A stretch of 64,000 nucleotides of DNA from positions 1 to 64,000 of the forward strand of contig NZ_AUPZ01000003.1 in the NCBI RefSeq assembly GCF_000445475.1, given 5' to 3'. This document shows positions 165 to 62,593 of this stretch, piece by piece. The stretch's first letter is position 1. Each line of letters starts with the position of its first letter. The notes under the pieces are model-generated. The model made no database searches. It was not told the DNA's origin and was given only the letters and a program-made list of their open reading frames with translations. Both the position numbers and the translations under genes were made by a program. Source of the DNA: Sulfurimonas hongkongensis. Lineage in GTDB: Bacteria > Campylobacterota > Campylobacteria > Campylobacterales > Sulfurimonadaceae.

Positions 165-201
165 TTTTTTTCCTCTTTTTAATCTTTGTATACTATAAAT
201 A

Positions 202-384
202 AATTGAACCATCTGATTAATTTATAAACTAGATTCCGTGTCAAGCACGGAATGACGGGACACGCGTCATCCTGAATAAACAAACCGTCATCCTGAACAA
301 ACAAAACCGTCATCTTGAACAAACAAACCGTCATCCTGAACTTGATTCAGGATCTATCTTAATAATTGTTCAGAGCACTCAATT
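202..384. repeat. Mosaic MITE-like repeat, copy 1
   Basis: The element is bounded by imperfect inverted ends: TTGAACC-x-TCTGATTAATTT on the left and AATAATTGTTCAGAGCAC on the right, both abutting AATT. Inside are a palindrome made of gattccgtg and cacggaat, four degenerate ~21-bp units with the core gtcatcctgaa, and a second palindrome, cctgaa-cttga-ttcagg. The same element lies at 18329-18488 and 58913-59087, and a variant with different interior lies at 62441-62593. It carries no open frame that looks like a transposase, so it would be non-autonomous. Confidence 0.8.
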
Positions 385-504
385 ATATAAACACTAAATT
401 ACGTCGATAGTAATACTTTAATATGCTTAGTTAATTACATTAGTCAATATAACAGTATACTCAAATCATCTATTTTTGACAAAAAACTTCAAAGGGGGTT
501 CCAA

Positions 505-18196: not shown

Positions 18197-18328
18197 TTTA
18201 CTCTCCTTGCTCGTTTTTTTATGAGTAATACGTAACTTTTTAAAGAACACAACTTACTCTTTGATACTATGTTAACTTAACTATACTTAGCGAAGTGTTA
18301 TTATTGTTTTTTAGATTGTAATATTTAA

Positions 18329-18488
18329 TTGGGTGCTCTGAACAATTATTAAGGTAGATCCTGAATCAAGTTCAGGATGACGGTTTGTTTGTTCAGGGTG
18401 ACGGTTTGTTTGTTCAGGGTGACGCGTGTCCCGTCATTCCGTGCTTGACACGGAATCTAGTTTATAAATTAATCAGAGGGTTCAATTT
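18329..18488. repeat. Mosaic MITE-like repeat, copy 2
   Basis: This copy is in inverse orientation to copy 1. The end TTGGGTGCTCTGAACAATTATT is followed by the palindrome cctgaa-tcaag-ttcagg, then three ~21-bp units (core ttcagggtgacgg), the palindrome gattccgtg/cacggaat, and the end ATAAATTAATCAGAGGGTTCAA. AATT occurs at both borders. It occupies most of the katA-flgE intergenic region. Confidence 0.82.
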
Positions 18489-18529
18489 ATTAAAGACGAG
18501 GTAGCAAAGAATTGAAGCAGGATTAAAAC

Positions 18530-20644: not shown

Positions 20645-20683
20645 CTTATGTCCTTTAATTTATTTCATAAATTTAAGGGAACC

Positions 20684-20979
20684 TAATCCCATTTTATTTG
20701 TCACGCCAAAGGGAGTAATCCCTTTGGCTACGCTAACGCTGAGTTTCCTTCGGCAGGAGGCCCTCGGCACTTGTGCCTCTTTGTTGCATTTCATAAATTT
20801 AAGGGAGGTTAATCCCATTTTATTTATTATGCCAAAGGGAGTAATCCCTTTGGCTACGCTAACGCTGAGTTTCCTTCGGCAGGAGGCCCTCGGCACTTGT
20901 GCCTCTTTGTTGCATTTCATAAATTTAAGGGAGGTTAATCCCATTTTATTTATTATGCCAAAGGGAGTAATCCCTTTAG
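20684..20979 (-). repeat. 126-bp tandem repeat array before flgE
   Basis: There are two full units (starts 20684, 20810) and a partial third (20936). Full units differ mainly at gtcacg versus attatg. Each contains the palindrome ccaaaggga-gtaa-tccctttgg and a smaller ggcac-ttgt-gcc hairpin. One minus frame stays open through the array with a 42-residue period (segment LSVSVAKGITPFG), but no gene signature supports translation. The array fills the gap between the two hook genes, with its last unit ending about 40 bp before the flgE start. Confidence 0.9.
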
Positions 20980-21039
20980 ATATTTTGTTTTTTGCACTTA
21001 AAAATAAGTAGCATTTAGTGTTCCAACTCTTTAGATATT

Positions 21040-23000: not shown

Positions 23001-23050
23001 AATATACTCCTTAATTTTATTTCATAAAATGAAGGGGGGCCTTCATCTTA

Positions 23051-23425
23051 TTTGTCCGTAAAAGGAACAAGTCCCTTTTACTTCGCTTAGGCCGCTGTGG
23101 CCACTGAAGCTAGCCTTTTTACAAAAGGCAGAGTTTATTTGTCCGTAAAAGGAACAAGTCCCTTTTACTTCGCTTAGGCCGCTGTGGCCACTGAAGCTAG
23201 CCTTTTTACAAAAGGCAGAGTTTATTTGTCCGTAAAAGGAACAAGTCCCTTTTACTTCGCTTAGGCCGCTGTGGCCACTGAAGCTAGCCTTTTTACAAAA
23301 GGCAGAGTTTATTTGTCCGTAAAAGGAACAAGTCCCTTTTACTTCGCTTAGGCCGCTGTGGCCACTGAAGCTAGCCTTTTTACAAAAGGCAGAGTTTATT
23401 TGTCCATAAAAGGAACAAGTCCCTT
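23051..23425 (-). repeat. 87-bp tandem repeat array before flgD
   Basis: Units begin at 23051, 23138, 23225, 23312 and 23399, an exact 87-bp period. The first four appear identical; the fifth is truncated and diverged. Each unit contains the hairpin gtaaaagg-aacaagt-ccttttac, a ggcc-gctgt-ggcc hairpin and gcctttt-taca-aaaggc. On the minus strand one frame stays open with a 29-residue period (LSEVKGTCSFYG), but no start codon is apparent. The array separates fliK from flgD. Confidence 0.93.
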
Positions 23426-23427
23426 AC

Positions 23428-24849
23428 TTATGCGTAGTTTGGAACTATAATCTCTAAAGAGCTTAAAATCTCTTCATTCTTATCTTCGTTTTCAAAATAA
23501 GCATACTCTTCATTAGCTCTTTTTTCATTTTGGCGATTTTGTTGCTGGTTTGCAGCTTGTTGTTCGCCTCCAGAAGAGTTATTAAAGTTTAATGAAGCAT
23601 TATTTATTCCATTATTGTTTAACTGTGCTCTTAACTCATTTGCATTCATTGAGAGTGTGTTGATTGCAGTATTGTTTGAGCTGATATTTACATGTAGATT
23701 TTTACCTCTTTGGATTATCGTCAAGTCAACTTCTCCAAGTTTTTGCGGATTTAGTTGAAGCTTTACTCTTGTAAATGGAGACTTATAGTCCTCTATAGCC
23801 GTCTTTACATCTTGAGATAGGTACTTTATCATCTGCTTTGCTTCGTTTAGTTTTACTTCTAAACTATCAGACTTTAGCGATAATCCATCTAGTTTTGAGT
23901 TAGTTTGTCCATCGTTAGCTGATGATTCGCCATGCAAAAGCTTCTCTAAGTTTTTAGTTACATCTGTCGTTGCTGTTGGAGCAAGAACTCTAGCCGTAGC
24001 TACAGAAAAATCTGCTGTTAATTTTGCAGAGTCTTTAGATTTTTCACCTCGTAATAATAACTTTAGTGTCTCATCTGCTTTTTCTTTTGGTGTTTTTTGC
24101 TCTATTTTAAATTGTTTAGCCACTACTATTTGCTCCGTAGTAAGCTCCTTTGCTTCAAGAGATTTAAACAGGGGTGTTTTTTTTGCTATGTCGTTAGTAG
24201 GCTTTATATTTAGTTTTTTATCTTCTACTGCATTTTGCTCTTGGACCTTTTGCTCACCGCTCGAAGCAGAAGTGTTTTGTGCTGTTGCCTTGTTTAGCGG
24301 AGTCTTTGTTTTAAGTAAGCCATCACTCTTAGCATCTTTTGCAATTGGTTTAGCTCTTACTTCTTCTAAACTTAACTTAGAGACATCAATACCAAAGTTT
24401 TTTGCCATAGTGGCTAAACCCCTTAGTGTCTTTGGTAACTCTTTTGTTTGTGACTTTTTATATTCATCACTTTGTAAGATTTTAGACTTTAAGTACTCTT
24501 TCGCATCCGAGATTAAGCTTTTTAACTCTTTAGCACTCATGCCTTGAGTGAGTTTTGGATTTAACTCTAGGGCATCTTTTTGCTCACCTGCAAGCTTTAT
24601 CGGCTTTTCATTATCTTTAGCTTTTTCACCTTTTAAAAGCGAGAGAAGTGACTCTTTTTTAGAGCTTGTTTTTGAAATAGTATTTGATGCTTTTTCGTCT
24701 TCTAGCGAGAGAACAATTGCACCATTTGCTGGTTTATCTTTTGTTACAACACCTTTTAAGAGCTGTGAAAAAGATAGATTAGACTCTTTATCTGGAGCTC
24801 CAAGAGGAGATGACGCCTTAGCATCACTTTTTGCACTTACAACAATCAT
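23428..24849 (-). CDS. fliK: Flagellar hook-length control protein
   Basis: The 473-residue protein is Lys-, Ser- and Ala-rich and low in complexity over its first ~330 residues. It then has the conserved Flg_hook C-terminal domain (VKLQLNPQKLGEVDLTIIQR, followed by LRAQLNNNGI). This matches FliK, the secreted ruler that ends hook growth and switches export specificity. The C-terminal tail is Gln/Asn-rich. A good Shine-Dalgarno (AAGGAG) lies before the ATG, and a sigma-54-like promoter lies just upstream. It is the first gene of the fliK-flgD-flgE run. Confidence 0.9.
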   Translation of the reverse strand: MIVVSAKSDAKASSPLGAPDKESNLSFSQLLKGVVTKDKPANGAIVLSLEDEKASNTISKTSSKKESLLSLLKGEKAKDNEKPIKLAGEQKDALELNPKLTQGMSAKELKSLISDAKEYLKSKILQSDEYKKSQTKELPKTLRGLATMAKNFGIDVSKLSLEEVRAKPIAKDAKSDGLLKTKTPLNKATAQNTSASSGEQKVQEQNAVEDKKLNIKPTNDIAKKTPLFKSLEAKELTTEQIVVAKQFKIEQKTPKEKADETLKLLLRGEKSKDSAKLTADFSVATARVLAPTATTDVTKNLEKLLHGESSANDGQTNSKLDGLSLKSDSLEVKLNEAKQMIKYLSQDVKTAIEDYKSPFTRVKLQLNPQKLGEVDLTIIQRGKNLHVNISSNNTAINTLSMNANELRAQLNNNGINNASLNFNNSSGGEQQAANQQQNRQNEKRANEEYAYFENEDKNEEILSSLEIIVPNYA

Positions 24850-38787: not shown

Positions 38788-39008
38788 GTCATCCTACTTA
38801 TTTTGAATAAAGTTTATGATTATACCATTTCAAGATTTTGTTTTGATAAATTTCAAAATTAGAAACTAAATAGAATCTTCAAACATATACAATAGCTTTT
38901 TTTCATATCAGAGTTTAATGTTAAGTTTTTATAATGAGAGCTGAAAATAGTCTTTAGATAAAAACATTTAGGAATCTAGGCCTTAATGTCTCAAAAAAAT
39001 TCCAAGAG

Positions 39009-39113
39009 GTGCTAATGCTGAGGGCCTCCTATCACAAGGAAACCAAGCGCGCACAACGGAGTACCCTTGGGGTATTAGCGTAGTCAAAGGGACTTGTCCC
39101 TTTGGCGTGATAA
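39009..39113 (+). repeat. Palindromic element before msrBA
   Basis: This diverged single copy is related to the 126-bp units: gagggcctcct, aaggaaac, ttagcgtag and the core caaaggga-cttg-tccctttgg occur in the same order. It is oriented as those units are relative to flgE, and ends about 20 bp before the msrBA start. One frame reads ISVVKGTCPFGVINK then stop, paralleling the frames in both tandem arrays. Apart from this element nothing is recognised between nrdB and msrBA. Confidence 0.75.
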
Positions 39114-39134
39114 ATAAATAAAAAGGAGATGCGT

Positions 39135-40067
39135 ATGAAGTTTTTTATATATTTCATACTGCTAATGTTAACCATGAATGCAATGAATTTAGAACCCTAT
39201 CAAAAGAGAATAGAGCAACTTAGTGATGAAGAGAAAAGAGTGCTGATTCATAAAGGCACAGAAAGACCATTTAGCGGTAAATATACAAATGAAAAATCAA
39301 GTGGTACATACACTTGTAAGATTTGCGATACACCACTTTACAAATCAAATGATAAGTTTGACTCAAACTGTGGCTGGCCTAGTTTTGATGATGCCATAGA
39401 AGGTGCGGTAAAGAGAATTCCTGATGCTGATGGAAGGCGTGTTGAGATAGTTTGTGCAACTTGTGGTGCTCATCTTGGACATGTTTTTGAAGGCGAAGGT
39501 TTAACTCCTAAAAACACTAGACACTGTGTAAACTCAATCTCTATAAAACTAGATAAAACTCCTGATGCAAAAGATAGCAGTATGAGTTATGCTTACTTTG
39601 CAGGTGGATGTTTTTGGGGAGTAGAGTACTACTTAGAAAAACTCGATGGTGTAAAAGAGGTTCACTCTGGTTTTATGGGTGGACATGTTAAAAACCCTGG
39701 TTATTATGAAGTTGTAGCAGGAAATACAGGGCATCTAGAAGCTGTTGAAGTTGTTTATGATAAAAGTAAAATTTCATATGAACAAATTGCAAAAACCTTT
39801 TTTGAGATTCACGACCCAACTCAAGTAGATGGACAAGGTCCAGATATAGGTTCACAATATTTATCGGCTGTTTTTGTAAATAACGAAGATGAAAAAAACA
39901 CCATACGCAAACTTATAGCTCAGTTAAAAGCAAATGGTTTTGATGTAGCAACAAAGATATTAAACAAACAAGAGTTTTACAAAGCAGATGAGTCTCATCA
40001 AAACTACTACAAGAAAAAGGGTTCACTTCCATATTGTCATGGTTATAAAAAAAGATTTAAAATGTAG
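39135..40067 (+). CDS. msrBA: Exported bifunctional methionine sulfoxide reductase MsrB-MsrA
   Basis: I take ATG 39135: GGAG ends six bases before it, while the ATG at 39129 directly abuts that site. A signal peptide (MKFFIYFILLMLTMNAM) leads to an MsrB domain (zinc CxxC pairs CKIC and CATCG, catalytic Cys in RHCVNS). An MsrA domain follows (catalytic Cys in GGCFWGVEYY). It repairs both stereoisomers of oxidised methionine, here in the periplasm. Domain order is B then A. A palindromic repeat element lies just upstream. Confidence 0.93.
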   Translation: MKFFIYFILLMLTMNAMNLEPYQKRIEQLSDEEKRVLIHKGTERPFSGKYTNEKSSGTYTCKICDTPLYKSNDKFDSNCGWPSFDDAIEGAVKRIPDADGRRVEIVCATCGAHLGHVFEGEGLTPKNTRHCVNSISIKLDKTPDAKDSSMSYAYFAGGCFWGVEYYLEKLDGVKEVHSGFMGGHVKNPGYYEVVAGNTGHLEAVEVVYDKSKISYEQIAKTFFEIHDPTQVDGQGPDIGSQYLSAVFVNNEDEKNTIRKLIAQLKANGFDVATKILNKQEFYKADESHQNYYKKKGSLPYCHGYKKRFKM

Positions 40068-58854: not shown

Positions 58855-58912
58855 TTTAATCCTTCTATTTGAGTGTTGTAAGTATACATATAAAACATTT
58901 TATTTTATCGAA

Positions 58913-59087
58913 TGCTCTGAACAATTATTAAGTTGCATCCTGAATCAAGTTCAGGATGACAGTTTGTTTGTTCAGAATGACGGTTTGTCTATTCTAAATA
59001 ACAGTTTGTCTATTCTAAATAACGCGTGTTTCGTCATTACGTGCTTGAGGCGGAATCTAGTTTATAGATTAATCAGAGGGTTCAATT
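58913..59087. repeat. Mosaic MITE-like repeat, copy 3
   Basis: In the same orientation as copy 2: end TGCTCTGAACAATTATTAAG, palindrome cctgaa-tcaag-ttcagg, four degenerate ~21-bp units, a diverged palindrome, and end ATTAATCAGAGGGTTCAATT. It is older-looking than copies 1 and 2. Its border supplies the purB stop codon (59082-59084). Confidence 0.8.
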
Positions 59088-61868: not shown

Positions 61869-61990
61869 GATCAAAGTAAGAGAACCGCTTTTTACTATGC
61901 AAAAGTATCTCTTTAGAGCTTAGTATGACAATAATTTTTATTGTGGGATTGATCCATTCCGTCATTGTGGGCTTGACTCGCAATCTCATA
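61869..61990. repeat. Partial, diverged mosaic repeat
   Basis: The segment 61869-61930 matches the interior of the 62441-62593 repeat (shared block ctatgcaaaagtatctcttt). A following block, ccgtcatt...cttgac...aatct, resembles the conserved palindrome of copies 1-3. The characteristic ends are missing. Confidence 0.55.
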
Positions 61991-62045
61991 AGGTCTTAGA
62001 AACTTAGAATTTGTTAGCATCTGAGTTGTTTTAAAGTCTAAGGAG

Positions 62046-62139
62046 ATCCTGAATCAAGTTCAGGATGACAGCAAGTTCAGGATGACAGCAAGTTTAGGAT
62101 GACAGCAACTTTAGGATGACAGCAACTTTAGGATGGCAG
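62046..62139. repeat. Short 17-bp tandem array with palindrome
   Basis: A palindrome atcctgaa-tcaag-ttcaggat opens five 17-bp units (caagttcaggatgacag and variants, 62055-62139). The core is the same as in the mosaic repeat interior, but the element ends are absent. The large gap 61432-62169 holds no gene that I can support. Confidence 0.75.
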
Positions 62140-62169
62140 TAGATTTGCTTGTCAAAGAGATTTGTACTA

Positions 62170-62412
62170 TTATACTGCGTTGTATCTTTTTATGATTTTT
62201 TTCACACGATTTTTTAGGTTGCGAAGTGCTTCAACACTTGTTGCACCATCAGCAGTTAAATTTTCAAAATCACCATCAAACTGAGCTTTTGCTATCCAAC
62301 CTATTTTTTTATGGTATTTAATACCAACAAAACGTATATCACCAAAATGTACTTTACATAAATCATATATTCTTTTTATTCGATCTGTATTTGTTTTCTT
62401 TCTTTCACTCAT
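62170..62412 (-). CDS. Small basic protein, unknown function
   Basis: I start at ATG 62412, with AAGGAG upstream; the longer frame reads through a mosaic repeat. The 80-residue protein is basic (MSERKKTNTDRIKRIYDLCK at the N-terminus, KNRVKKIIKRYNAV at the end), with a beta-like centre (FVGIKYHKKIGWIAKAQFDG). It may bind nucleic acid. No family is recognised. A mosaic repeat starts 29 bp upstream. Confidence 0.65.
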   Translation of the reverse strand: MSERKKTNTDRIKRIYDLCKVHFGDIRFVGIKYHKKIGWIAKAQFDGDFENLTADGATSVEALRNLKNRVKKIIKRYNAV

Positions 62413-62440
62413 AAAAATCTCCTTTATTTTGTTTAGAGTA

Positions 62441-62593
62441 TTGAACTCTCTGATTAATTTATATACTAGATTCCGTGTTAAGAACGGGATGACAAAACAA
62501 ATGCCATTCTGAACTCTAAAGAGATACTTTTGCATAGCAAAAAACGATTTTCTTATTTTGATCCAAATCCAATATGATAATTGTTCAGAGCAC
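62441..62593. repeat. Mosaic MITE-like repeat, copy 4 (module-swapped)
   Basis: It has the same left end (TTGAAC-x-CTCTGATTAATTTATA) and right end (AATTGTTCAGAGCAC) as the other copies, and the gattccgtg palindrome is partly kept. The 21-bp tandem units are replaced by another block that also occurs at 61869-61930. Confidence 0.75.

Follow-up and report, generated by a model that had tools for sequence, protein, structure and literature searches.

Palindromic elements before msrBA, flgE and flgD of Sulfurimonas hongkongensis belong to a family of short, probably mobile DNA repeats that may tune translation

The ends of REP and IS200/IS605 elements form hairpins that are recognized as single strands. 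In attenuators that sequester the Shine-Dalgarno (SD) sequence and in riboswitch expression platforms, an anti-SD segment has two competing partners. Tagged REP repeats include the GTAG and CGTC superfamilies, and GTAG REPs are reported to lie at varying distances from downstream genes (PMC3733652). Pneumococcal BOX elements can affect neighboring genes (PMC3049150), and a translational role has been proposed for the TAACTGA repeats of Beggiatoaceae (PMC4679880). REPs of Sulfurimonas gotlandica have been counted in bulk by RepRanger (PMC12306157), so counts of palindromic repeats exist for the genus; in the literature we found no description of the SD-flush Sulfurimonas family presented here.

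We analyzed a 64,000-nucleotide stretch of the S. hongkongensis genome (the window), in which msrBA, flgE and flgD are preceded by related elements. A preliminary description of this DNA had reported a palindromic core common to the three loci, in the same orientation relative to the downstream start codon. Both features were seen at all three; AAATAA follows each core, and the sharing is far beyond chance. The features are as follows.

39000-39128, + strand: whole msrBA element, consisting of P1, P2 region, tag TTAGCGTAG, H4, CGTGATAAAT, A-rich tract and SD AAGGAG
39000-39079, + strand: 5' part of the msrBA element, a degenerate P1 hairpin (GAGGTGCTAATGCTGAGGG) and then the P2 region with optional CGCGCACAACGGAGTACCCTTGGGGTATTA insert
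39075-39083, + strand: 5' tag TTAGCGTAG of the msrBA H4
39083-39106, + strand: msrBA core hairpin H4, 10 bp with loop CTTG, 3' CGTGATAAAT
39107-39128, + strand: msrBA tail GTGATAAATAAATAAA, which abuts the SD AAGGAG (39123-39128)
39129-40067, + strand: msrBA, fused methionine sulfoxide reductase B/A gene downstream of the element
20693-20982, - strand: 126-bp tandem array before flgE, with cores at 20693-20744 and 20819-20870 and a 5'-truncated core at 20945-20982
20651-20692, - strand: flgE H5/H6 module, whose last arm holds the flgE SD (AAGGA, complement of 20651-20655)
23046-23431, - strand: 87-bp tandem array before flgD, with four full cores at 23046, 23134, 23221 and 23308
23395-23431, - strand: truncated first copy of the flgD array, directly after the fliK stop
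23008-23049, - strand: flgD H5/H6 module, GATGAAGG / CCTTCATTTTAT / ATAAAATTAAGGAG

The core reads AAAGGGA-CTTG-TCCCTTT at msrBA, AAAGGGA-TTAC-TCCCTTT at flgE and, with one G.T pair, AAAGGGA-CTTG-TTCCTTTT at flgD, and both arrays are built of the same kinds of modules as the msrBA element. The latter is a short form without H5/H6, in which the SD starts 4 nt past the end of the covariance model; the SD spacing is better for the ATG at 39135 than for that at 39129. The optional insert of its P2 region is 24–30 nt long, and modules of its 5' part were found again behind purA and at dnaK, rpmA, secG and others. In the flgD module, segment 2 has two possible partners, segment 1 and segment 3, the latter containing the SD. 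Also, the first (5') copy was cut at the start of H4 in three arrays (window 23395-23431 and 20945-20982; locus L030, 1499-1534), so that the arrays read H4-(tail-P1-P2-H4)n.

The genome searched was a Sulfurimonas draft of 2,302,023 bases in 28 contigs. The exact core pattern occurred at 5 places, versus 0 for the reversed control pattern. A 122-bp query matched 38 places at E≤10, with dispersed homologues down to E=1.7e-27; its best non-self match (94% identity over 77 nt) was located before an unrelated gene. The genome-wide covariance-model search proposed in the preliminary description was carried out with a model of H4 and its flanks (R1), which found 57 core copies at E≤0.001. With R1, copies were also found in 30 of the 36 congeners and, outside the genus, in 2 of 23 genomes from the same order. 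A full copy consists of a 5' hairpin, P1, and the 3' hairpin H4 behind the TTAGCGTAG tag, and two subtypes were distinguished, type 1 (GAGGCAC..GTGCC) and type 2 (CTTTAGTGcc..AGCGGCTAGCG). Among 116 distinct copies, GTAG was the tag in 68, followed by GAAG (21) and GTAA (10); the first pair of the H4 stem uses the last G of GTAG. At the gathering threshold, Rfam detected only a tRNA in the window, and at relaxed stringency (E≤1) there was no credible match over the elements and one weak hit outside them (24 bits, cut-off 58.6). A search of a plasmid collection gave no match. The msrBA, flgE and flgD elements are members of a Sulfurimonas family of short, probably mobile DNA repeats.

Like GTAG REPs (PMC3733652), these repeats are short intergenic palindromes with GTAG at the 5' foot, many copies and tandem clusters, and they share with them covarying stems, G.T pairs and a location near the 3' ends of genes. 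Unlike GTAG REPs, the Sulfurimonas unit has two hairpins and a longer shared body, GTAG is replaced in approximately 40% of copies, and no RAYT was found beside the copies, whereas GTAG REPs are associated with RAYT/TnpA-REP transposases. Hairpins near both ends recall the non-autonomous derivatives of IS200/IS605, and strand-specific (G.T) recognition would fit, but the Sulfurimonas repeats differ in that neither a transposase nor a common target or cleavage site was apparent. Pneumococcal BOX elements are likewise modular and intergenic, variable in the number of internal units and structured if transcribed; they have inverted repeats and target duplications, neither of which was obvious in the Sulfurimonas repeats, and favor convergent gene pairs, and neither SD-flush placement nor an SD hairpin is described for them (PMC3049150). 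The TAACTGA repeats are similarly dispersed, mostly in one orientation and a few nt from start codons, but they are simple heptamers, and about 90% of their intergenic regions lack an SD (PMC4679880). As in SD-sequestering attenuators, the anti-SD segment of the Sulfurimonas module has two predicted competing partners; in contrast to them, the platform rides on a dispersed repeat and has no known ligand or protein.

With regard to a mobilizing enzyme, the only Y1 transposase-like gene of S. hongkongensis was located away from any copy (L039, 1462-2847; G000:C21), where it adjoins outer-membrane efflux and ABC secretion-type genes. Its Y1 domain is N-terminal and joined to a region that, from reading the sequence, we take to be SapC-like, and the fusion is probably domesticated. 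No Y1 gene was hit in several congeners with 17–31 copies, and the co-occurrence of copies with PF01797 across the genus gave no support for a RAYT partner. Since REP families without a current RAYT exist, the missing RAYT lowers the case for REP membership and does not exclude it. We place the family among REP-like repeats, as a variant in which this feature is missing.

Several other repeats were noticed. Another dispersed palindromic family (CGTCATTCCGTGCTTGACACGGAATCTAGT / GTCATCCTGAACTTGATTCAGGATCT; window 198-391, 18322-18491, 58899-59087 and 61869-62563) resembles CGTC-tagged repeats (PMC3733652). A third repeat, GGAAGTGAGGCTTTAGCCTCGCC..GGAGAACGCCATTGG..GTCCCACTTCCG, was often situated just 5' of SD-flush elements (L022, L029, L030 and L037, approximately 1240-1450), and a fourth, CCCCGAACAAGTTCGGGGTTCC, occurred in L014-L016. 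The nusG-rplK spacer of many Sulfurimonas (L257-L336) can form a long hairpin, CTACGCTAA..TTAGCGTAG, in which the TTAGCGTAG tag that precedes H4 is present as inverted copies.

Orthologous sites were then compared. At flgD, the site is empty in most congeners (..TACGCATAAAGGATATATT-ATG, with the SD overlapped by the fliK stop). S. hongkongensis has its array between the fliK stop and the SD. A single truncated copy is present in the closest relative, G060, and other copies were seen in G005, G004 and G021. At msrBA, elements were found in G060 and G025 and in none of about a dozen others. The grpE-dnaK spacer of S. hongkongensis (G000) carries two copies, one antisense and following the grpE stop, the other sense and abutting the SD of dnaK. 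In G060 only the antisense one is present, immediately behind the grpE stop; type-2 sense copies are present in G032, G078, G079, G008 and G063, and many genomes have neither. Before rpmA, the spacer was long in 19 genomes (with a core in 18) and empty, with 9–39 nt, in 32. The rplK and rplL slots were a mixture of filled and empty among named Sulfurimonas, and the same slot, for example that of dnaK or of an S4-domain gene, holds different subtypes in different congeners. Because orthologous sites are filled or empty depending on the species, copies appear to come and go, and these alignments give good support to insertion, or gain and loss, of copies. The preliminary description had preferred a function over random insertion. 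Insertion itself is borne out by the many empty sites and randomness is not, the positions being very precise; the comparison supports apparent insertion at such positions.

The same precision was seen in how copies face genes. In S. hongkongensis we counted by hand, with each array as one site, 30 sense and 12 antisense sites (two-sided binomial p 0.008). The fixed orientation noted at three loci is therefore only a bias genome-wide; random orientation and a lack of covariation, which would have spoken against a function, were looked for, and this bias and covariation in H4 were found. A wider sample of 130 copies came from four genomes plus individual loci in 14 more and was sorted by an automatic ORF-based rule. 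Of these copies, 65 were sense, 28 lay antisense to protein genes and 4 to tRNAs, 1 was sense and preceded a tRNA, and the other 32, mostly inner array units, stayed unassigned; these orientation counts are descriptive, as sites common to species are not independent. In 60 of the 65 sense copies the SD started either 2–6 nt (14) or 29–42 nt (46) past the end of the core model. For 22 of the 28 copies antisense to a protein gene, the stop codon of that gene fell between -9 and +6 nt, and tRNA 3' ends were at -1, -1, 0 and +4 nt. Type 2 was overrepresented among antisense copies (Fisher p 0.001). The 3' end of the element thus sits exactly against the SD in sense copies and against a stop codon or tRNA 3' end in antisense copies, so that it touches a gene both ways, and the 5' side is loose (20–600 nt). 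No one target sequence seems to account for this: at junctions of filled and empty sites we saw stop codons, tRNA CCA or, ahead of AAGGA, an A-rich tract, with no single tetranucleotide, and inspection of copies and empty sites revealed no obvious terminal inverted repeats or target-site duplication. Antisense copies were also observed within tRNA clusters (L104 1982-2416, L100 2104-2156 and L109 1953-2007), and two of these copies abut the CCA ends of tRNA-Lys and tRNA-Arg. Besides, a sense copy is located just upstream of an apparent 23S rRNA gene (L110 322-373, G000:C24), and between nadC and flhB, where the start of flhB and its leader are directly duplicated, the duplication encloses an antisense copy (L036 1400-1640, G000:C13).

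Both hairpins of the element covary. For H4, 95.2% of cells were paired and 8 of 10 pairs had double changes, with a covariation of 0.52 versus 0.19 in shuffles (0 of 500 shuffles). Covariation was stronger in P1 of intact type-1 copies (98% paired; 0.89 versus 0.20 shuffled). Non-Watson-Crick cells of H4, read on the + strand of the element, were G.T rather than A.C by 75:6 overall, with 43:3 for sense copies and 32:3 for antisense ones. Most of this excess came from one pair (25-33), without which the ratios were 14:3 and 11:3; shared ancestry of copies weakens these counts, and their direction agrees in both classes. Because the asymmetry was not reversed in antisense copies, H4 looks to be maintained for the element itself, in which it would be a strand-specific hairpin as in REP/IS200-type elements, and not for the mRNA. 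No clear replication-strand bias of hits was visible by eye in the single-contig relative G032. The mRNA function suggested earlier for the core hence finds no backing in H4, with its G.T excess in both orientations; such a function is supported for another part, H5/H6, which the preliminary description did not mention.

Most sense copies carry this extra module of 35–45 nt between core and SD, and its spacing was found in 46 of 65. Its segment 2 (CCTTCATTTTAT), which contains CCTT, can pair with either of two others, the upstream segment 1 (GATGAAGG..) and segment 3 (ATAAAATTAAGG; ATAAA(A)TNAAGG), in which the SD lies. In the pairing of segments 2 and 3, 91% of cells were paired and 7 of 12 pairs showed double changes. 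A model of this pairing (R2) gave approximately 24 strong matches in S. hongkongensis, almost all of which immediately follow a core and precede protein genes, and no match in this genome was behind an antisense copy. R2 matches lacking a recognizable core precede luxS and a dUTPase-like gene, and cores at rplS and trxB are degenerate. At rpmA, the SD is part of an 11–12-bp palindrome in 17 of the 18 sites with a core and of one of ≤6 bp in the 32 empty sites; among rpmA orthologues the SD stem had 10 double-change cells (0 of 500 shuffles). This covariation supports the putative anti-SD stem, as is required of an SD-sequestering attenuator, and the module is likely to be a translational regulator. 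Competing folds were predicted for the module. The alternative GGTTCC-GGAACC pairing at rpmA showed no covariation, and the predicted SD pairing probability ranged from 0.03 to 1.00 (median 0.35, 45 leaders), indicating that some leaders are predicted to be open and others closed. Neither observation supports a uniform SD switch across copies. Many of the repeats are predicted to fold the SD into a hairpin and may in this way tune translation, for example at rpmA, dnaK and flagellar genes.

The copies are scattered over the genome, conserve their structure and differ between species in whether they occupy an orthologous site. The account that we favor, giving it somewhat better than an even chance as a whole, is that of a mobile REP-like family whose SD module turned into a 5'-UTR control element. 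The elements would be non-autonomous, two-hairpin repeats that start with P1 and finish with the GTAG-tagged H4, may have inserts in the middle and form tandem arrays. They would be spread, in the style of REP and IS200/IS605, by an activity that recognizes the hairpin in single-stranded form, on the + strand of the element itself. The module of sense copies would open or hide the SD and so act on translation initiation of the downstream gene, and the mobile repeat would have become a control element at recurrent genes such as rpmA, rplL, dnaK, flgD and fliE. An unlikely reading, though one of real weight, is that the repeats are purely selfish or passive, without effect on genes, and that both their SD-flush placement and the SD hairpin arise incidentally, from insertion into the A-rich tract upstream of SDs and from the sequence of the element. 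Core conservation independent of gene orientation, 12 of 42 sites being antisense, patchy presence among species and weak SD pairing in many copies are all consistent with passive repeats. Such repeats do not explain the longer H5/H6 spacing in 46 of the 65 sense copies and the lack of R2 matches behind antisense copies, H5/H6 before luxS and the dUTPase-like gene with no recognizable core, or the compensatory changes in H6 between orthologous rpmA sites.

A conserved cis-regulatory RNA, riboswitch-like or a ribosomal-protein leader, that is vertically inherited and not mobile would have covarying hairpins and a location before SDs of ribosomal-protein and chaperone genes, as observed. It is very improbable because the downstream genes are unrelated, copies at different genes share 94% identity, most relatives have empty sites with precise junctions, the same slot holds different subtypes, some copies are antisense or flank tRNAs, and Rfam contains no match; empty sites and subtype replacement led us to reject vertical inheritance alone. 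Peptide-level constraint, the other function considered earlier, is scarcely credible, whether in the form of in-frame palindromic peptide elements (as Rickettsia RPE) or of translated leader peptides. The similar frame described at the three loci does exist, but it follows from the palindrome. Units of 126, 87 and 111 bp maintain the frame, one array has a 94-aa ORF, and the frame was open in 64 of 116 copies versus 33 expected by base shuffling. However, this excess arises because fixed motifs close the other two frames, and copies are located between genes and are not in-frame insertions within them. A peptide role was rejected as the frame is closed by stops in nearly half of copies (open in only 36 of 60 sense and 13 of 32 antisense) and tandem units of 82, 88, 91 and 130 nt are not multiples of three.

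A further, rather improbable reading is that the SD itself is the target of a mobile element, with insertion exactly 5' of AAGGA completing an inverted repeat with the SD. If so, each insertion would install an SD hairpin, a ready-made translational control over the downstream gene, and Sulfurimonas species would have exploited such control repeatedly at the same genes. The family is REP-like and lies on the translation-start side, flush with the SD, with compensatory changes in the SD-pairing stem. Two things that are often merged for REPs, conservation for the element and use as an mRNA structure, are here kept apart. Species pairs with filled and empty sites are natural material for testing. 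If the module regulates translation, the family would illustrate clearly how mobile repeats can spread translational control among ribosomal, chaperone and flagellar genes.
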